Shown piece by piece: positions 45,190 through 53,406 of a stretch of 64,000 bases of DNA. A program made the translations under genes and the position numbers. Origin of the DNA: Pseudomonas sp. MPC6 (GTDB lineage: Bacteria; Pseudomonadota; Gammaproteobacteria; Pseudomonadales; Pseudomonadaceae). The stretch spans positions 6,475,001 through 6,539,000 of the forward strand of contig NZ_CP034783.1 of assembly GCF_006094435.1 (NCBI RefSeq), in the 5' to 3' direction. The stretch's first letter is position 1, and each line of letters starts with the position of its first letter. The notes under the pieces are model-generated. The model did no database searches and had not been told where the DNA came from. It worked only from the letters and a program-made list of their open reading frames with translations.

Positions 45190-45552
45190 CTAATGACCTG
45201 GATCAGACTCAGCTTTCTTCATCCCCAGACAATCAATCGACCGATCAACCATGGCCTTGGCGATCTCCAGCAAATGCCAGACGGAAAACACCATGGCCCT
45301 GTCTGCGCCTTTGAGGTGCTCGCCGCACTGATAGGCGGTGACCGAGGCACAGCGCAGCAGGTCGGCGACATAGAGTTGGGTATCTTCGAAACTCACATCA
45401 TCACTGACGTTGTAGAACCGGAGCTCATCCGGTGCCGACGGTTGTTCGCCGGTCAGGTAGAAATCGATCGCCCGATAGAGTGCGGAGCGGTCTCTGGGCA
45501 GTTCGTCGTTTTCGGTTGGATTGGAAGGTGGATCGGGAACTGATCGTTTCAT
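45190..45552 (-). CDS. Small DUF3077/DUF6124-like protein of unknown function
   Basis: 120 residues from ATG 45552 (MKRSVPDPPSNPTENDELPR). The C-terminal half (VSFEDTQLYVADLLRCASVT, YQCGEHL, WHLLEIAKAMVDRSIDCLG) has the helical pattern of small Pseudomonas-restricted DUF families that occur in several copies per genome. Family assignment is tentative and no function is known. Its upstream region carries TTTAGTAGGC 40 bp before the start, the same core found upstream of the two Rhs-core genes. Confidence 0.7.
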   Translation of the reverse strand: MKRSVPDPPSNPTENDELPRDRSALYRAIDFYLTGEQPSAPDELRFYNVSDDVSFEDTQLYVADLLRCASVTAYQCGEHLKGADRAMVFSVWHLLEIAKAMVDRSIDCLGMKKAESDPGH

Positions 45553-45592: not shown

Positions 45593-45636
45593 GCCTACTA
45601 AACGATGGGTGGCAGCTGTGCGTAGGTTAGTAGGCC
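45593..45636. promoter_or_regulatory. Inverted TTAGTAGGC elements upstream of the DUF gene
   Basis: GCCTACTAAAC at 45593-45603 and GGTTAGTAGGCC at 45625-45636 are inverted copies of one 9-bp core (TTAGTAGGC). The copy read on the minus strand lies 40 bp upstream of the ATG at 45552. A degenerate third copy, GGCTACTAAACCC, lies at about 45748. The core is shared with elements at 49808 and 52237. Confidence 0.5.
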
Positions 45637-46139
45637 GGTCAATAGGAAACCCGGTGCATCCGAAGATGCCCCACACACAGCCGCCATATTCAATACCCGG
45701 CAACATTGCCGGGCATGAGCATGAAAACGCTATGCACCTATTGGTCCGGGCTACTAAACCCGATCACTGATGAGCAGTGACGGACGAAGACTAGGCACGG
45801 AAATCTGTCGGCGCAAGCGTGCGGAATAATCTAGGAAACGTCCTGCAAAGGGAAGGGATTAGCCCTGTAGGAAGCCTGTTTTTCCTGTAGGAAAACTTAC
45901 TTTTTTACGAGAGAAATCCTCTGTGCGAAGCAACGACGGAACAGATTTATTTAACCCGTTACCAGGCAGCTCCCCTCACTGACCCCTTGGTGAACAAACC
46001 CGCACACACTTCATCTTTGTGGAAGCGAGACCGGCTTGCCGGCGAAGGCACCAAACCGAATCTGCTGGAAACAACATCGCAACCCGCGTCGCCAACGCTT
46101 CCCCCTCCCGCTGATCTTCGCGCAATCCCACGGACCGGC
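45637..46139. other. Non-coding stretch between the DUF gene and creD
   Basis: No convincing gene. Contains a hairpin CCCGGCA-ACAT-TGCCGGG (45696-45713) without a T run, a degenerate TAGTAG element near 45748, two direct copies of CCTGTAGGAA at 45864-45873 and 45884-45893 (20-bp period) followed by AT-rich DNA, and a REP fragment (CCGGCTTGCCGGCGAAGGC) near 46031-46049. Confidence 0.5.
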
Positions 46140-47510
46140 TCATTCCACCGCCCCGATGTCGAACGCCAGTGGCTTGGCAGTCTTCTGCCCAACCCCATAC
46201 CAATCCAGTTTCCGCGTCAGCACCATAAACACGCCCAGCAACCCGAACAGCAACAGCGAGCCCATCAACAGCGCGTAATCCTCTGCACTCAACAACCCAT
46301 AGAGCAAGCCATACAAGGCCGCCAACCCGGCCGAAAAACTCAGCCCGTGACGCACGCTACGCAGTACGTGGCATACATAGAAGCCGATCAGCAACACACA
46401 GGCGCTCGCCGATAACAGATACGCCAAGGCAAAGCCGATATGTTCGGCAAGCGACAACAGCAGCAGATAAAACAACGCCAGGGCCACGCCGACCAGGGCA
46501 TATTGCACCGGGTGCACCGCCAGGCTTTTCAGCACTTCGAAGAGGAAGAAACCCGCGAACGTCAGGACAATAAACAACAGCGCGTATTTGATCGCCCGAT
46601 CGCTTTTCAGGTACTGGTCCACCGGGTCGATGAAGCTCACGCCAAAGCTGCGGCCGCTGAATGCTTCGCAACCGCTGCCCGACACGCAGCTGTTCAGGGC
46701 TTCTTGCAAGTTGGTGGAGAAAAACGAGGTTTGCCAACTGGCAGTGAACCCCAGGTCGGTGACTTCGCGCTGAGCCGGCAGGTAGTTGCCGATGAAGCTC
46801 GGATGCGGCCAGTTGGCGGCCAGCGATACCTTGCTGGTTTTGCCCACCGGCACGACTTGTAACTGACCGGTGCCTTGCAGGCGCAGGTCAAAACCAAAGG
46901 TCAGTTCCGTTGGCTGCCCGGCGTCCAGGGCCGGCAGCGTTACGTGTACGCCTTCACCCAACCAGCGAACCTGGGTGCCTGGAATGAAGTCCAGACGTTG
47001 GCCGTCCAGCTCCAGTTTCAAGGCGTTCTCGATGCCGCGAATATCGCTGATACCGACGGCAAGGAACGGCTGATCGAACTGGTAATCGTTGAAGTCTTCC
47101 TTGATCCCCAATTGCGCTGGCAGCGAAAAATGCCCACTGATGCGATTGTCGGCGTGGAACAATCGCGCTTCATAAATGCCCCGTTTACGCAGTTCAGTCT
47201 GAACCTGGCCATCGAGCTCGAAGCGCTCAGGCAGGAAATACAGGCGACCTCGTTCCTCACCGAGTTCCTGATAGCGCTGGTTGGTTTTCTCGTTGAGTTT
47301 CCAGGTGCGGACCACCTTGCGATAGGGCACCACCATCAGCGGGCCGCTCAGTAGTTGGCTGTAACTGGAGCTGCGGGCGATGTCTTCGAGCACGCCATCG
47401 CGCAGTTGCTGGCGGTCCTGGATTACGCCGCTGATCATCAGCAACGGGATGAGCAACAACAGCATCAGCAGGGCAATGGCCCCGAGTTTGAGGGTCAGGC
47501 TTCGGTTCAT
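46140..47510 (-). CDS. creD: Inner membrane protein CreD
   Basis: 456 residues. One N-terminal helix (~8-30), a large periplasmic domain (~31-310), then several C-terminal helices (~310-440), the CreD layout. Family segments: QDRQQLRDGVLEDIARSSSY, GPLMVVPYRKV, and HPVQYALVGVALALFYLLLL. It is the main output of the CreBC system; loss alters envelope integrity and beta-lactam response in Pseudomonas and Aeromonas. GGGAGCG precedes the ATG. It follows creC by 111 bp. Confidence 0.94.
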   Translation of the reverse strand: MNRSLTLKLGAIALLMLLLLIPLLMISGVIQDRQQLRDGVLEDIARSSSYSQLLSGPLMVVPYRKVVRTWKLNEKTNQRYQELGEERGRLYFLPERFELDGQVQTELRKRGIYEARLFHADNRISGHFSLPAQLGIKEDFNDYQFDQPFLAVGISDIRGIENALKLELDGQRLDFIPGTQVRWLGEGVHVTLPALDAGQPTELTFGFDLRLQGTGQLQVVPVGKTSKVSLAANWPHPSFIGNYLPAQREVTDLGFTASWQTSFFSTNLQEALNSCVSGSGCEAFSGRSFGVSFIDPVDQYLKSDRAIKYALLFIVLTFAGFFLFEVLKSLAVHPVQYALVGVALALFYLLLLSLAEHIGFALAYLLSASACVLLIGFYVCHVLRSVRHGLSFSAGLAALYGLLYGLLSAEDYALLMGSLLLFGLLGVFMVLTRKLDWYGVGQKTAKPLAFDIGAVE

Positions 47511-47621
47511 GGGACGCTCCCTGTTTGGATAGGGAGAGTCTGGTGTGGGGGTGTGGGGGTTTTATGTGGGGAATATGGAGACTGTGTGGAGACTGGGCCG
47601 GCGAAGGGGCGCAACTCGGTC

Positions 47622-49040
47622 CTAAGCCAGGCGCAACCTGACTTCAACCCCGCCCTCGACGTTACCGATACTCATTTCTGCGCCATGCAGCTTCACCACC
47701 TCCGCCACAAAGTTAAGCCCTAGCCCGGTGCTTTTACGTCCACTGTCCGGACGCGGCAGCGAGTAAAAACGCTCGCTCAGGCGCGGCAGCGCATAGTCGG
47801 GAATTGGCTCGGCCTGGTTGAACAGCCTGAATTCAACCCGGCCCCCAACCCGCTCGGCGCTGAATCGCAGCAGGCCCTGGGCCGGAGTGAAATCCAGGGC
47901 ATTTTCAAGCAGATTGCCCAGCGCCTGACGCAACAGGAAAGGTTCGCCAAACAGCTGCAGATCCGATGTGATCTGCTGTTCGACTCGCAACTGCTTGCCC
48001 TCGATCCGCGCCGCTTGCGCGCTCAACAACTCATCGACCAACGCCGCCAACGGCACCCTCACCCGCTCCTCCAACCCCTGCCGTTGTTCCACCTGCGCCA
48101 GGTTCAACAAGCGCTCGATCAACTGCTGCATCCGCGCACTTTCGCTGTCGATGTTGTCGACGAACCGTTGCCGCTGCGCTAACGGCATCTCGCCTTGCAG
48201 CAGCTCCGCCGCGCCACGAATCGCCGCCAGCGGGCTTTTCAGTTCATGGGTCAGCGTGTGGACATAACGCTCCACGTAAGCCTTGCCTTCAAGCTGGATG
48301 CGCATCTGCTCCACCGCTGTCGCCAACTGCTCCAGCTCGCCGCCACGATAGTGCGGCACCTCGACACGCCGACCTTCGCTGACCGCCTGCGCGTACATCG
48401 TCAACCGGCGCAACGCGGCGCTCAGCCACCACGACAACAGCGCGCCGAACAACAGGCCAAGGCCGATCAACCCGGCGCCGTACGCGAGCAATCGCCGTTC
48501 GGTGCGATCAACATAAGGTTGCAACGAGCTATTGGGTTTGGCCACGGTAACCACGCCGATGATCTGGTCGTTGTCGCGGATCGGCGCGCCGACGTGCATC
48601 ACCGAGGACTCGGGATCATCCGGATCGCTGCGGCTGGAGCGCGCACCGTATTCACCGCGCAGGGTCAGGTAGACGTCGTTCCAGCGCGAGTAATCCGCCC
48701 CCACCGCCACCCCGCTGGAGTCCAGTACCACGATGCCGTTGGCGTCGGTGACGTAAATGCGGTGGTTAACCTGATTCTTCGGCAACCCCCAAATGCTCGC
48801 CTTCGGTTGCCGCTCACCGTAGGCCTCGAGCAGTTGCGGCCAGCGGTTCTGATTGAGGGTGCCGGCCTTGAAGTCATCACGCAGAATCTCGGCCATCAGG
48901 TTGGCAGTGTCGACCAGGGTTTCTTCGGTGGATTGGCGCACGCCGGGGCGGATTTCCTCCATGACCGTGCTGAGCACGAAGTAACCGGTCAGGCCGATAA
49001 ACAGCACATAGACCAGGAAGATCCGGATCCCCAGCGGCAT
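47622..49040 (-). CDS. creC: Two-component sensor kinase CreC
   Basis: 472 residues from ATG 49040 (a TTG directly before it is also possible). Helices at ~7-25 and ~185-207 frame a periplasmic sensor region; HAMP follows, then HisKA with His265 in HTLTHELKSPLAAIRG and an HATPase domain (LGNLLENALDFTP, STGLGLNFVAEVVKLHG). The start overlaps the creB stop. Confidence 0.94.
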   Translation of the reverse strand: MPLGIRIFLVYVLFIGLTGYFVLSTVMEEIRPGVRQSTEETLVDTANLMAEILRDDFKAGTLNQNRWPQLLEAYGERQPKASIWGLPKNQVNHRIYVTDANGIVVLDSSGVAVGADYSRWNDVYLTLRGEYGARSSRSDPDDPESSVMHVGAPIRDNDQIIGVVTVAKPNSSLQPYVDRTERRLLAYGAGLIGLGLLFGALLSWWLSAALRRLTMYAQAVSEGRRVEVPHYRGGELEQLATAVEQMRIQLEGKAYVERYVHTLTHELKSPLAAIRGAAELLQGEMPLAQRQRFVDNIDSESARMQQLIERLLNLAQVEQRQGLEERVRVPLAALVDELLSAQAARIEGKQLRVEQQITSDLQLFGEPFLLRQALGNLLENALDFTPAQGLLRFSAERVGGRVEFRLFNQAEPIPDYALPRLSERFYSLPRPDSGRKSTGLGLNFVAEVVKLHGAEMSIGNVEGGVEVRLRLA

Positions 49041-49720
49041 CAACTGCGCTCCGGGCTGTAGCTATAACCCAGGCCGCGGTGGGTCTGGATTGGCTCGGCA
49101 TCAGCCTTCACCAGCCGCAATTTGGCGCGCACGCTTTTGATATGGCTGTCGATGCTGCGCTCATAACCGGCATCTGCGGCGACACCCAGCGCATCGAGCA
49201 ACTGCTCGCGGCTGAACACACGCTCGGGTCGCTCCAGCAGGCATTGCAGCAGACGAAATTCGTGACGGGTCAGGCTCAGCGACTGGTTGCGATAGCTGAT
49301 CTGCACACGCTCGCTGTCGATGCGAAACAATGCCGCAGAGGCCTCGGTCACGGCTCGTGGCGCCATGCGCTTGAGAATCGCCCTGACCCGCGCCGCCACT
49401 TCACGGGGACTGAACGGCTTGACGACGTAATCGTCCGCGCCGATTTCCAGACCCACCACGCGATCGATTTCCCCATCCCGGGCGCTGAGGAACATCACCG
49501 GCACTTCGCTGAACCGCCGCAGCTGCTTGCAGGTTTCGAAACCGCTGATGTCCGGCAAGCCAATGTCGAGAATGATCAGGTCCGCCGGAGTCTGGCGTTG
49601 ATGCTCAAGCGCCGCCGCGCCGAGACTCAACCAGGTCGTGGTGAAGCCCTCACCCTGCAGGGCGAAAATCAGGGTGTCGGCAATGGCGGCTTCGTCTTCG
49701 ACTATCAGGATATGGGGCAT
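49040..49720 (-). CDS. creB: Response regulator CreB
   Basis: 226 residues from ATG 49720 (MPHILIVEDEAAIADTL). Receiver domain with Asp52 and Lys101, then an OmpR-type winged helix (SLTRHEFRLLQCLLERPERV, SIDSHIKSVRAKL, THRGLGYSYS). CreBC responds to cell wall and metabolic cues and activates creD. No clear TTCAC-N6-TTCAC box is visible near creD here. Confidence 0.94.
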   Translation of the reverse strand: MPHILIVEDEAAIADTLIFALQGEGFTTTWLSLGAAALEHQRQTPADLIILDIGLPDISGFETCKQLRRFSEVPVMFLSARDGEIDRVVGLEIGADDYVVKPFSPREVAARVRAILKRMAPRAVTEASAALFRIDSERVQISYRNQSLSLTRHEFRLLQCLLERPERVFSREQLLDALGVAADAGYERSIDSHIKSVRAKLRLVKADAEPIQTHRGLGYSYSPERS

Positions 49721-49807
49721 GGCGTTCGAGCCCGGCAGTTGAGTGGGCGAACGGTGGACCAAGGTTGATACGACGTCAATCCGCAACGGAGGGTTAGAGG
49801 CTCGGAC

Positions 49808-49831
49808 CTAGCAGTTCTGTTAGTAGGCAAA
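49808..49831. promoter_or_regulatory. Palindromic element upstream of the first Rhs-core gene
   Basis: CTAGCAGTTCTGTTAG (arms CTANCAG/CTGNTAG around TT) followed by TAGGCAAA. The 24-bp block differs at only two positions from the one upstream of the second Rhs-core gene. It ends about 60 bp before the ATG at 49892. A separate hairpin (AAGGTCC/GGACCTT, 49854-49875) lies between it and the start. Confidence 0.65.
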
Positions 49832-49891
49832 AACTGAAAACAGTCTGATGCTGAAGGTCCGACTTTATGGACCTTGCCAGGAGCTCCGCCG

Positions 49892-50674
49892 ATGCCTTCG
49901 CACTCTCGCAAAACAATCCTGCTGGCTACCGATCAACAGCGCTCGGTGCTGAACGCGCTTGACTCGAATCGGCCTCGGCCCATCGCCTACACACCCTACG
50001 GTCATCGCCCACCGGAAAACGGCTTGCTCAGCCTGCTTGGGTTCAACGGCGAACTGCCGGACCCGTTGACCGGGCATTATCATTTGGGGAAAGGGTATCG
50101 ACAGTTCAACCCGGTGTTGATGCGGTTTAACAGTCCGGACAGTTGGAGTCCGTTTGGGGAAGGGGGGTTAAATGCGTATGGTTACTGCGGAGGCGATTCG
50201 ATTAATCGGAGTGATCCATCGGGACATTTTTGGGGGATTGGAAAGTTCTTCAGAAGGATTTTCGGGCGCGGACCTAAAGTAGCTAAAAATACAAACCCGG
50301 TATCAAAAACAGTTGCCCGTAGTAGCACCGAGGCATCAATGCCAAGTGGAGTAGCAAAGCCACCTCCTTTGTCCTCCCCAAAGATCGTTACCGATTTAAA
50401 ACCTCAAGATTATTACGCCGACCTGGATTATGGCCTCTTCGAACCGGCAAAAAAACCAGTCCCCCGCGTTCACGTACAGTATTTACATGACCCCAGGGAA
50501 AGGCTCGCTAACCTTGAGTCCGCAAGAATCAATGTATCCAAGAGACTCGCCTCCGACCGCCCCGGTGACAGAGAGAGGCGTCTAATCCTGCTAAATAACA
50601 TAGACAGCGACATTTCCGAACTCACTAAACAGGTAAATCAGATTCGCAATCCCCGCTCACCAATATCCATATGA
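49892..50674 (+). CDS. Orphan Rhs repeat-associated core protein, tip of unknown function
   Basis: 260 residues from ATG 49892 (GGAG at 49880-49883). It lacks the long YD-repeat shell of full Rhs proteins and starts at LLATDQQRSVLNA, then IAYTPYGHRP, GLLSLLGFNGELPDPLTGHY and FNPVLMRFNSPDSWSPFG, ending the core with NRSDPSGH at about 105-112. The ~148-residue tip has a basic stretch (KFFRRIFGRGPKV), a low-complexity linker and a probable coiled coil (RERLANLESARINVSKRL, LNNIDSDISELTKQVNQI). Tip codons are more AT-rich than neighbouring genes, a sign of transfer. No domain is recognised and no immunity-like gene follows. Confidence 0.8.
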   Translation: MPSHSRKTILLATDQQRSVLNALDSNRPRPIAYTPYGHRPPENGLLSLLGFNGELPDPLTGHYHLGKGYRQFNPVLMRFNSPDSWSPFGEGGLNAYGYCGGDSINRSDPSGHFWGIGKFFRRIFGRGPKVAKNTNPVSKTVARSSTEASMPSGVAKPPPLSSPKIVTDLKPQDYYADLDYGLFEPAKKPVPRVHVQYLHDPRERLANLESARINVSKRLASDRPGDRERRLILLNNIDSDISELTKQVNQIRNPRSPISI

Positions 50675-50705
50675 CGATCACAAAAGGACGTTAAATCTCG
50701 ATCGA

Positions 50706-51212
50706 TCAACAATCCGGCTTGTCCGCCGTAAACCGCCGAGCCGGATTCACCGCCGCCCCAAACTCACGCAACGCCTTGGCGCCAATCAGCAACGGATAAT
50801 TAAAGCTGCTGCGGTCGGTCAGGTTGACCTCAACCGTGCGTTTAACATTGCCCAGGCACAGCTCCAGATCAACCACTGGCCGCTTGGTGGGTGCAACGTC
50901 TTCGTCGTCATCGTCGCCTTCTTCGGAGCGGGTCTTGATCTTGCTGATCCGCGCGACCTTGTGCTCGTAGACCTTGTTGCTCGCGTCCTTGGTGCCGAGG
51001 CGGAAGCGCACCCATTCATCGCCGTCGCGGGTGAAGGTTTCGATGTCCTTGGCCGAGAGAGACGCGGTCAGGGCGCCGGTGTCCATTTTGGCCTTGAGCA
51101 CTTCGCCGCCGATTTCCGGCAAGGCGATGTATTCGTAGCGGCCGTAAAGGGTCGGCTCGGCGGCCAGGATTGGCAGGGCCACCAGGGAGAGCAATGCAAG
51201 GAGGGATTTCAC
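50706..51212 (-). CDS. Retropepsin-like aspartic protease (PF05618 type), secreted
   Basis: 168 residues from GTG 51212 (AAGGAAG upstream). Signal peptide VKSLLALLSLVALPILAAEP, then the retropepsin core with KMDTGALTASLSA (catalytic Asp in DTG) and the family ending NYPLLIGAKALREFGAAVNP. An acidic insert EEGDDDDEDVAP sits mid-protein. Related proteins were once annotated as ATP-dependent zinc proteases; RloA-type is the current idea in Pseudomonas. Neighbour of creB in PAO1 (PA0462) as I recall, so the first Rhs gene is an insertion between them. Confidence 0.83.
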   Translation of the reverse strand: MKSLLALLSLVALPILAAEPTLYGRYEYIALPEIGGEVLKAKMDTGALTASLSAKDIETFTRDGDEWVRFRLGTKDASNKVYEHKVARISKIKTRSEEGDDDDEDVAPTKRPVVDLELCLGNVKRTVEVNLTDRSSFNYPLLIGAKALREFGAAVNPARRFTADKPDC

Positions 51213-51295
51213 GTAATGGGCTTCCTTGGGGAGTTGGGGCAATGGGGTTTTAGACCGTCGCTCTTGAATTCGTTCGGCGTGGTTGAAGATCAAAA

Positions 51296-51360
51296 GATCG
51301 CAGCCTGCGCCAGCGCCTGCATAGGGATGGCGTACACCCTTGGCCAAGGCTGCGATCATA
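51296..51360. repeat. Inverted repeat of the GATCGCAGCCT type
   Basis: GATCGCAGCCT (about 51296-51306) and AAGGCTGCGATCAT (51346-51359) face each other across ~40 bp. This is a second intergenic repeat family known in fluorescens-group genomes, distinct from the REPs. Confidence 0.7.
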
Positions 51361-51393
51361 CCGCTGCCCAAGTGAAACATTCGTCACCCGATA

Positions 51394-51477
51394 CGGGAAA
51401 CCCTCCAGAACCGGGTCAACCAGCTCTGGATCGAAAAGGACCAGCGCATCGACGCCTTGCGCGTCGAGCGCCGCTGA
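51394..51477 (+). pseudogene. Possible remnant of a gene's 3' end
   Basis: A frame without start codon ending at TGA 51475-51477 encodes a charged amphipathic tail (RETLQNRVNQLWIEKDQRID). It looks like a real C-terminus more than chance, but is too short to be certain. It lies in the suspected rearrangement zone. Confidence 0.2.
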
Positions 51478-51478
51478 A

Positions 51479-52039
51479 TCAGCTACCGATGCCGGTGCCG
51501 ACACCCCAAATTCCGCCCAGGCTTTGCAGCAACGAACCGCCGACGCCCTGCTGACCGAAGTATTGCAGGATAAGCGGGGCAAACTGGGCGATCATGCCGG
51601 TGTCCATGCCCAAGGCGCTGAACGCATTGTTCAAGTCGTTGGTGTCCTTGACGGCGCCCAGGGCGTTGTCCAGGCCGGCCGCCTTGCCAGACGAACCCAG
51701 CAACCCGGCGAGCGCACCCAATTCACCACCGCCCGACAGTTTGTCGATCCCCGGTACACTTTTCGCCAGCTGCGAATAGTCGGTCGAGCTCAACTGGTTC
51801 TTCGCCAACCCCAACATCGCACTGGTGCCGCCAACGGCCTGTTGTGGCGTCACGTTCAATTGGCTGAGCGCACTCAGCAGACCGGCCGTCTCGGAAGTAG
51901 GCGCGGCCGTGGCGGCGGCGTTATCGCCTTTCATGCCGGAAATGGCATTGGCTGCATCGTTCAGGCTGAACTGGGCAAAGACCGGGCTGGCGGCCAGGGT
52001 CATGAGCGATGCCAGTGCAAAACCGCGTGAAATCCTCAT
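51479..52039 (-). CDS. DUF2780 exported protein
   Basis: 186 residues. Signal peptide MRISRGFALASLMTLAASPV (cleavage after VFA), then a Ala/Gly-rich helical region and DUF2780 features: LLSALSQLNVTPQQAVGGTS, AMLGLAKNQLSSTDYSQLAK, VPGIDKL, MIAQFAPLILQYFGQQGVGG. The family resembles VcgC/VcgE proteins of unknown role, probably periplasmic. Monocistronic. Confidence 0.85.
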   Translation of the reverse strand: MRISRGFALASLMTLAASPVFAQFSLNDAANAISGMKGDNAAATAAPTSETAGLLSALSQLNVTPQQAVGGTSAMLGLAKNQLSSTDYSQLAKSVPGIDKLSGGGELGALAGLLGSSGKAAGLDNALGAVKDTNDLNNAFSALGMDTGMIAQFAPLILQYFGQQGVGGSLLQSLGGIWGVGTGIGS

Positions 52040-52236
52040 TCAGACATCCTCTTGTGCCATGAAAACCGCCTGTTGCCAGACGGAAAAACTGCCGGTTTGA
52101 CCGGCTATTGGTCGACATGTTCCTCGATGCCACGTCCATTTTTGACCCACTCACGTAGATAAAATGTGAAACCCGAAAGCCTCGTGATGAATGGACCTTG
52201 TAACGAGGCCTGAACACCCGCGATGCCTCAGCGACC

Positions 52237-52260
52237 CTATCAGTTCTGCTAGTAGGCAAA
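52237..52260. promoter_or_regulatory. Palindromic element upstream of the second Rhs-core gene
   Basis: CTATCAGTTCTGCTAG followed by TAGGCAAA; two mismatches over 24 bp to the element at 49808. It ends about 52 bp before the ATG at 52312. A looser stem (GCCTCGT near 52179, ACGAGGC near 52203) lies just upstream. Confidence 0.65.
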
Positions 52261-52311
52261 CCCGGCGAGTTGCAGCACAGTGAAAATCTCAATCGAGGGG
52301 GAGCTCAATCC

Positions 52312-53406
52312 ATGCAGATCGACCGCGAAGCCCTGCTCTGCCGTTATCAGTACGACCCGCTGGATCGACTTGTTGATTACACGCTGTCAGCGAAAGCGAA
52401 TACCCGGCGTTTCTACCTCAAAGATCGACTGGTCACCGAAATTCAAGACGAGATCCAGCGTTCGATCATGCAGCACGAAGATCAATTGCTGGCACAACAA
52501 CAGCGCCAGACTGGCACCTTGGAAGTCAGCCTGCTCGCCACCGATCAACAGCGCTCGGTGTTGAGCGTACCCGATGCGTCTGGTCCGCGGCCGATCGCTC
52601 ACACACCTTACGGTCACCGCCCATTAGCGAGCGGTTTGCTCAGCCTGCTTGGCTTCAACGGCGAACAGCCGGATCCAGTGACAGGGTGTTATTTGCTGGG
52701 GAATGGGTATCGGGCGTTTAACCCGGTGTTGATGCGATTTAACAGCCCGGACAGTTGGAGTCCGTTTGGAATGGGCGGGTTGAATGCGTATGCGTATTGT
52801 GGGGGAGAACCGATACTCAGGAGAGACTCAACCGGGCACTTTTCATTCTTTCCTAAAGGATACAACCCCTTCAAAGGCCTCAGAAATATGCTGCGCTCCA
52901 AGGTTTCATCACCGCCTAAAGCCACATCGGTTGCCAGGTCCCCCATTAGCCCTACCAACAAAATGGCCTTAAACCTCGGCAGCGAGCATGAGCTGGTTGG
53001 ATACCATGGAACATCAGCGGAACATGCCAGAAAAATGCAAGTAACAGGACTGGACTCACGTTACATTGGCACAGGATCAGGAACTTTCTATGGCGACGGG
53101 TTTTATGCGACAACTGACATACACAAAGCGCTTCAGTACGCTAATGTTCGATCAGGAGCGTTTAACTCAAGTAACACCGAAGGTTTACTAGGAGTGTATG
53201 TAAAAAAACCCTCAGAAAAAATCTTAAACACACATTACAAATTCTTCCCCGAATCACGAGAACTATTAATAGACCCCTCCATATACAGAGATGTGCGAGT
53301 TGCCCCCGTCGAGCTTAGCTCTTACTCACCTCAACCAATTATCGAAGACATATTCAACATCCGATCAGGACGACCATCAACAGCAACCTCGCATTACAAA
53401 TACTAA
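52312..53406 (+). CDS. Orphan Rhs-core protein with ADP-ribosyltransferase-like toxin tip
   Basis: 364 residues from ATG 52312, preceded by GAGGGGGAG. One YD-type repeat (YQYDPLDRLVDYTL) and FYLKDRLVTEIQ precede the core GLLSLLGFNGEQPDPVTGCY to FNSPDSWSPFG. The usual DPxG at the core end is DSTG here (172-175). Tip residues ~228-345 have VGYHGTSAEHARKMQVTGLD, SGTFYGDGFYATTDIHKALQ and a later Glu-rich segment, the H-Y-E pattern of ADP-ribosyltransferase folds: His232, Tyr265 and probably Glu315 or Glu317. The tip DNA is visibly AT-rich. No immunity gene follows; fdhA is convergent. Role as effector or solitary toxin is inferred. Confidence 0.8.
   Translation: MQIDREALLCRYQYDPLDRLVDYTLSAKANTRRFYLKDRLVTEIQDEIQRSIMQHEDQLLAQQQRQTGTLEVSLLATDQQRSVLSVPDASGPRPIAHTPYGHRPLASGLLSLLGFNGEQPDPVTGCYLLGNGYRAFNPVLMRFNSPDSWSPFGMGGLNAYAYCGGEPILRRDSTGHFSFFPKGYNPFKGLRNMLRSKVSSPPKATSVARSPISPTNKMALNLGSEHELVGYHGTSAEHARKMQVTGLDSRYIGTGSGTFYGDGFYATTDIHKALQYANVRSGAFNSSNTEGLLGVYVKKPSEKILNTHYKFFPESRELLIDPSIYRDVRVAPVELSSYSPQPIIEDIFNIRSGRPSTATSHYKY

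Follow-up and report, generated by a model that had tools for sequence, protein, structure and literature searches.

GerE-type and truncated LuxR regulators consist of a DNA-binding domain alone, and las/lux-type boxes sit near position -42.5 of the activated promoter; this position, like the boxes of lasB and lasI, serves as general background and is not relied on below. For LasR and RhlR of Pseudomonas aeruginosa, CT-N12-AG is the motif reported for the las-rhl boxes (PMC2018727), and the lux box of Vibrio fischeri reads ACCTGTAGGATCGTACAGGT (PMC4444344). LuxR solos of subgroup A are described as the most widespread in P. fluorescens species, and experiments on one member yielded no direct evidence of gene targets (PMC8546723). 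In the literature searched, including the available parts of PMC5256989 and PMC5006985, we found no link of a LuxR-type box or regulator to Rhs-core genes. Here we analyze a stretch of 64,000 nucleotides (the window, G000:C4:6475001-6539000) of the 7.22-Mb genome of Pseudomonas sp. MPC6 (G000), in which two orphan Rhs-core genes are each preceded by a short palindrome, the A-box. The reading we consider probable is that A-boxes are class II LuxR-type operators, at which a small protein with only a helix-turn-helix (HTH) domain would activate orphan Rhs-core genes and relay an autoinducer-type LuxR signal.

The original prediction had pointed to near-identical blocks of 24 base pairs (bp) upstream of both genes, and this description is correct: the blocks at 49808-49831 and 52237-52260 show two differences and each contains CTANCAGTTCTGNTAG. 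Their conserved unit is the 16-bp palindrome CTADCAGTTCTGHTAG, our A-box. The features concerned are the following.

49808..49823, plus strand: A-box 1, CTAGCAGTTCTGTTAG, a LuxR/las-type palindrome agreeing with the consensus of 81 non-redundant sites
49847..49852, plus strand: -10-like hexamer GATGCT, at the distance from A-box 1 that is fixed across the regulon (A41/T45 pattern, letters read directly)
49892..50674, plus strand: orphan Rhs-core gene 1, 260 amino acids, by profile match to TIGR03696
52237..52252, plus strand: A-box 2, CTATCAGTTCTGCTAG, agreeing with the same consensus
52276..52281, plus strand: -10-like hexamer CACAGT, spaced from A-box 2 as for A-box 1, A and T positions kept
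52312..53406, plus strand: orphan Rhs-core gene 2, 364 amino acids, by profile match to TIGR03696

Genes 1 and 2 score 66.4 and 65.5 bits against a TIGR03696 cut-off of 32.5, and the palindromes end 68 and 59 bp upstream of the likely ATGs at 49892 and 52312, respectively. Recent duplication does not account for the shared blocks: on alignment, the 200 bp upstream of the two genes reach 0.57 identity, which is the level of shuffled sequence. The C-terminal part of Rhs gene 2 (window 52980-53406) looks by eye like a domain of the ADP-ribosyltransferase type; Pfam and a sequence search against solved structures gave no match for it.

In the complete genome the exact pattern CTANCAGTTCTGNTAG occurs 10 times, compared to 0 for the reversed pattern. 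A looser form (NN centre, one mismatch) is not enriched in this genome, with 13 places against 36 for the reversed control, and only the exact TT-centred A-box is therefore enriched. Over 298 Pseudomonas genomes the exact A-box yields 186 copies in 29 genomes (1 to 26 per genome), whereas the reversed pattern yields 8. Reading 113 distinct sites among the 186 individually, we find a same-strand Rhs core less than 500 bp downstream at 95 of them (76 at 340-389 bp, 18 at 180-239 bp and 1 at approximately 470 bp). As the original prediction implied, the frequency upstream of Rhs genes lies far above chance. A control across organisms covered 80 of 117 stretches, those listed by the scan. Among the matches listed, an Rhs core lies within 500 bp at 21 of the 33 sites in Pseudomonas (12 misses, of which 4 are end-of-stretch cut-offs) against 0 of 54 non-Pseudomonas sites (2 cut off by the stretch end); the viral motif scan gave scattered matches among those listed.

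A consensus was derived from the 81 sites that remain after dropping those at least 80% identical over 170 bp. It reads [AC]CTADCAGTTCTGHTAG[TG], with C at position 21 in 68 of the 81. The 40 bp upstream of the box are almost without information, and the bases after TAG vary. Farther downstream, A41 and T45, the decisive bases of a -10 hexamer spanning 40-45, are found together at 80% of the sites, against at most 21% for other offsets. The A-box centre is located 31.5 bp upstream of this conserved -10-like hexamer and hence near -43 from the start that the hexamer implies.

By its ends (a dyad with CT-N12-AG) the A-box is a LuxR-type site of the las/lux-box class, with putative binding by a LuxR-family protein, so that the claim that no motif of this form had been described fails at the level of the class (PMC2018727). 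Like the las-rhl boxes, as far as these are covered by the available text, it is a CT-N12-AG dyad upstream of scattered accessory genes; it differs in its nearly invariant inner bases (CAGTTCTG), in targets that belong mostly to one gene class, and in that LuxI is not found in this genome. LuxI (PF00765) is present in 60 of the 298 genomes and in 6 of the 29 box-positive ones, without any association with the A-box over the 298 genomes (Fisher p 1). Among 30 luxI loci an exact A-box is seen at one (G243); the best match has 12 of 14 letters at 3 loci, 11 at 2 and 9-10 at 24. Shuffled loci (n = 150) gave 9-11 letters, and 12 once. Given the lack of a LuxI in this genome and of an association over all 298, a LuxI link to the A-box was rejected.

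TIGR03696 is found at 17 places in this genome. Nine are short orphan Rhs genes (open frames of 278-411 amino acids) with an exact A-box in each locus, one of them inverted, and the tenth (3697846) is the end of a five-gene operon with an A-box upstream at 3709423. The remaining seven have no A-box match within three mismatches in loci of approximately 3.2 kb. In the five-gene operon (L072 7321-19323; G000:C4:3697321-3709323, minus strand) three large proteins without Pfam match come first, and the Rhs-repeat part (1289 amino acids) and Rhs-core part (277 amino acids) are separate genes that just overlap.

Orphan Rhs-core genes are common in these 298 genomes: the core part of Rhs gene 2 has a match at E <= 1e-20 in 122 of them. 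We sampled 20 further Rhs regions without a listed exact site (5 from box-positive genomes, 15 from eight box-negative genomes), drawn from the upper part of the Rhs match list; one of these (L502) also has a listed exact site, at a neighbouring gene. In 16 of the 20, at least one core has a box 353-410 bp upstream that matches in 11 or more of 14 letters, and such diverged boxes precede 22 of the 39 core hits, for example CTAGCAGTTTTGCTAG (G022, G026), CTAGTAGTTTTGCTAG (G155) and CTGTCAGTTCTGATAG (G201). For the box-negative genomes alone, 12 of 15 regions have a diverged box at the same place. At L500, L504, L515 and L516 no box of at least 11 letters was found at this distance before the core. 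For comparison, shuffled 3.5-kb stretches (n = 150) reach at best 9-11 letters anywhere on either strand, and 12 once. The box element seems older than its exact sequence and appears to drift by lineage.

A candidate for the protein that reads the A-box is encoded outside the window, at G000:C4:3696157-3696441. This protein of 94 amino acids has the GerE DNA-binding domain (PF00196, E 2.8e-17) and belongs to the LuxR family by that domain; the autoinducer-binding domain PF03472 is absent, and GerE is the sole domain found in the 94 residues (HTH-only protein). The closest solved chain is the DNA-binding domain of LasR (residues 162-237, E 9e-23), and the databases name the family 'LasR' or 'helix-turn-helix regulator'. 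In having a DNA-binding domain alone the family is like the GerE-type or truncated LuxR regulators, from which it differs by its closeness to the LasR domain and its position, mostly at Rhs loci. Strong hits (E <= 1e-40) occur in 21 of the 298 genomes, 20 of them box-positive, with G274 as the exception. This corresponds to 20 of 29 box-positive genomes against 1 of 269 others (Fisher p 3e-23, in a test that treats related genomes as independent).

The HTH-only gene has a lux box of its own upstream, ACCTGTNANNTNTNACAGGT (ACCTGT-N8-ACAGGT), which we call the B-box. In all 21 strong-hit genomes it is present with 0 mismatches and followed 21 bp on by TATAA, and the distance from its centre to the -10 is 31.5 bp, equal to that of the A-box. 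A B-box with 0-1 mismatch is also found at eight weaker genes (G006, G079, G129, G126, G022, G155, G026 and G106), with a less clear -10 in G022, G155 and G026. Paralogues in G057, G265, G081 and G015 as well as the second HTH-only gene of this genome have none (6-7 mismatches). Away from HTH-only genes, within 2.63 Mb of fetched sequence (overlaps included), boxes of at most two mismatches are limited to single hits at L436, L046 and L179 and a cluster at L319. Both arms are identical to those of the V. fischeri lux box as given in the available text (PMC4444344); unlike the latter, the B-box precedes a regulator gene without autoinducer domain. In G022, G026 and G155, drift has affected the A-box and the HTH domain but not the B-box, a pattern that suggests a separate reader protein for each box. 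Alternatively, the HTH-only protein may regulate its own gene at the B-box. The L319 cluster (approximately 2600-2760, G208) has no Rhs gene; an A-box lies there between two elements resembling lux boxes (differing from the B-box by 1 and 2 mismatches) and precedes a gene with a weak, below-cut-off match to FabA.

Regulator genes with a B-box are linked to Rhs genes. An Rhs core lies within 2.1 kb at 13 of 23 such loci (in G290 and G297 as short open frames), and at 15 of 21 loci there is an Rhs core within 5 kb or an A-box (at most one mismatch) within 0.7 kb, a count that omits G232 and G275, where the regulator was first noticed beside a box. In this genome approximately 1.6 kb separate the HTH-only gene from the terminal Rhs core of the box operon; a response regulator gene adjoins the HTH-only gene. 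Nine box-positive genomes lack a strong hit. Among these, G006, G079, G129 and G126 have a weaker relative with one of the B-boxes listed above, G204 has a weaker relative whose B-box shows 2 mismatches, and the relatives tested in G172 and G243 have no B-box under 4 mismatches. On sequence grounds, the HTH-only family is the best candidate for the A-box regulator and fits better than a subgroup A solo.

In the mechanism that we propose, an autoinducer-type LuxR of uncertain identity would act at the B-box and switch on the HTH-only gene. The HTH-only protein would then bind the A-box as a dimer, with the -10 implying a start site approximately 43 bp downstream, and activate the orphan Rhs-core genes plus one operon of Rhs-repeat and Rhs-core genes; in relatives it would also activate some fibronectin-III proteins. 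Because its own gene has a B-box with the -10 geometry of the A-box, the HTH-only regulator probably relays an autoinducer-type LuxR signal. Whereas boxes, spacing, genome distribution, linkage and conservation are direct results of computation, we infer binding, activation, direction of control, the LuxR acting at the B-box and the role of Rhs genes as effectors. A more specific version, a two-tier quorum-type relay in which an autoinducer-type LuxR, for this genome its PpoR-type (subgroup A) solo, reads the B-box and the 94-residue regulator switches on unlinked Rhs effectors via the A-box, is put forward tentatively, as a serious possibility.

A number of observations weigh against the proposed role of the HTH-only protein. 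Next to the relatedness of genomes in the Fisher test, the strong cut-off was placed after seeing the gap from 1.7e-42 to 4.5e-33. The HTH-only profile (alignment A2) derives from 19 genomes, every one of them box-positive, and as a consequence only the absence from box-negative genomes is an independent test. At a loose E <= 1e-18 some HTH-only hit is found in 95 of the 298 genomes. Conversely, G131 (11 A-boxes) and G223 (73% complete) have no HTH-only hit, for G131 at E <= 1e-18, and G172 (9 A-boxes) has only a paralogue with a best B-box of 4 mismatches. G274 has the regulator and the B-box, yet an exact A-box is missing, as is any Rhs match at E <= 1e-20. Weaker relatives in G009, G056, G066, G181 and G201 have B-boxes at 3-5 mismatches, and the regulator loci of G274, G252, G038, G251, G205 and G160 lack a nearby Rhs core or A-box in the stretch read.

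The A-box sites contribute to this list as well, since 18 of the 113 have no same-strand Rhs core within 500 bp and some of them (L071, L055) look unrelated. Four are flanked by the Rhs gene on their other side (with an AA centre when read along the strand of the gene), one precedes an Rhs operon, two (L056, L365) have an Rhs gene farther downstream, and at L061 there is an Rhs core on the opposite strand only, 1.4 kb off. The other 10 are without an Rhs core in the fetched stretch: L052, L059, L313 and L315 sit upstream of fibronectin-III proteins, L065 and one of the L323 sites lie before genes for large proteins that have no Pfam match and resemble the opening gene of the Rhs operon, L055 adjoins a luxI, and L071, L319 and the second L323 site are unexplained.

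The alternative that survives best, though we regard it as unlikely, is that a PpoR-type solo or other LuxR with an autoinducer domain binds the A-box directly, the HTH-only protein being a competitor or irrelevant. The subgroup A solo was our first guess for the regulator and has been demoted to this rival and to a candidate reader of the B-box. Its gene (G000:C4:888135-888866) encodes autoinducer and GerE domains in a genome without LuxI and has as neighbours a ferredoxin-NADP reductase and a 23S ribosomal RNA methyltransferase (best NCBIfam names, below equivalog cut-offs), which makes it a solo of subgroup A. It is the sole PF03472 protein found in this genome, at least one such protein is present in 28 of the 29 box-positive genomes (exactly one in 15), and the solo is present in G131 and G172, which both lack the B-box regulator. 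However, solo relatives occur in 236 of the 298 genomes (E <= 1e-10), most of which lack the exact A-box, and are therefore too widespread to track the A-box alone. Also, the exact A-box is common to genomes with a best solo match as low as approximately 46% identity. In G022, G026, G155 and G056 variant boxes are present at Rhs genes even though the sole PF03472 protein there is divergent and of another type. The six solo loci examined, 16-18 kb each (G000, G252, G264, G297, G198, G205) show neither an Rhs core nor an A-box within one mismatch, unlike most HTH-only loci. In contrast to the subgroup A member tested in PMC8546723, whose targets lack direct evidence according to that paper, the B-box gene would provide a candidate target here.

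Another LuxR, the divergent protein of 240 amino acids of G022, G026, G155 and others (alignment A1), is full length in 23 of the 298 genomes and was rejected as general regulator because only G126 among these is box-positive. A different HTH-only LuxR-type family (L561-L567, in G141, G070, G006, G079, G169, G037 and G044; open frames of 123-158 amino acids) has its DNA-binding domain in common with this 240-residue LuxR, as if the sensor domain had been lost.

It might also be argued that the palindrome is a site-specific recombination site that moves Rhs cassettes rather than a promoter element. Its TT centre is asymmetric, its orientation to the Rhs gene is the same at 95 sites against 4 inverted ones, several A-box arrays occur, and the Rhs tails differ. 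Nonetheless, the spacing to the -10 is fixed, and the four inverted (AA-centred) boxes retain A41 and T45 in gene orientation and so keep their spacing to the gene; therefore a dimeric activator fits and a recombination site is disfavoured. The B-box of the regulator gene has the same geometry, and boxes downstream of Rhs genes, which a cassette would require, were not seen, though no systematic search was made for them. Overall we consider recombination very improbable.

The original prediction had extended the shared element to a third gene, encoding a DUF6124 protein, for which two further features are relevant.

45190..45552, minus strand: DUF6124 gene (Pfam), judged outside the regulon, no A-box or B-box within 400 bp upstream
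45593..45635, no strand assigned: inverted repeat GCCTACTAA...TTAGTAGGC before the DUF6124 gene, separate from and unlike the A-box; kept in the close orthologues L345 and L183, absent from L318 and L152

The best A-box match in those 400 bp has 6 mismatches. The core said to precede all three genes holds only in part: the three loci share just TAGTAGGC (6 in the window, compared to approximately 1.8 per 64 kb of the other Pseudomonas sequence fetched), whereas an exact TTTAGTAGGC is confined to the DUF gene (45593-45602, minus strand). With at most one mismatch, TTTAGTAGGC occurs 6 times in the window where 0.99 would be expected (0 of 100 shuffles reach 6), an excess mainly due to three copies of the DUF gene's own repeat, where the palindrome is missing. 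One further copy is Rhs box 1, and the two elsewhere (7574, 61131) are inside long open frames, consistent with the statement that the core occurs nowhere else outside coding sequence; Rhs box 2 (GCTAGTAGGC) is not among the six. Relatives of DUF6124 are found at L345, L318, L152, L183, L515, L596, L070, L473 and L122, loci retrieved on account of an Rhs box or of the small regulator. Their presence in several Rhs-box loci, taken as a raw observation, would speak for one element common to Rhs genes and the DUF6124 gene, but with the repeat absent from the L318 and L152 orthologues and the bases after TAG varying in the A-box consensus, this has the least chance of all readings considered. Upstream of DUF6124 (window 45593-45758) there are three CTACTAA-type copies, two of which form the inverted repeat kept in the L345 and L183 orthologues; this repeat is possibly the gene's own operator. 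The proposal that a single class of regulator governs a scattered accessory regulon is thus strongly supported for the Rhs-core genes, by enrichment, near-constant spacing and conservation across genomes; the DUF6124 gene, with a different repeat, is probably outside the A-box regulon.

Summarizing, the shared operator offers a direct handle on when orphan Rhs-core genes are used and allows the Rhs regulon to be read from sequence. The A-box and B-box provide testable targets both for the small regulator family that has only the LasR-type domain and for LuxR solos of subgroup A. If the two-tier relay is true, any new Rhs gene that carries an A-box would thereby enter the regulon, and the regulator and the A-box would diverge in step from lineage to lineage, with the upstream lux box remaining constant.

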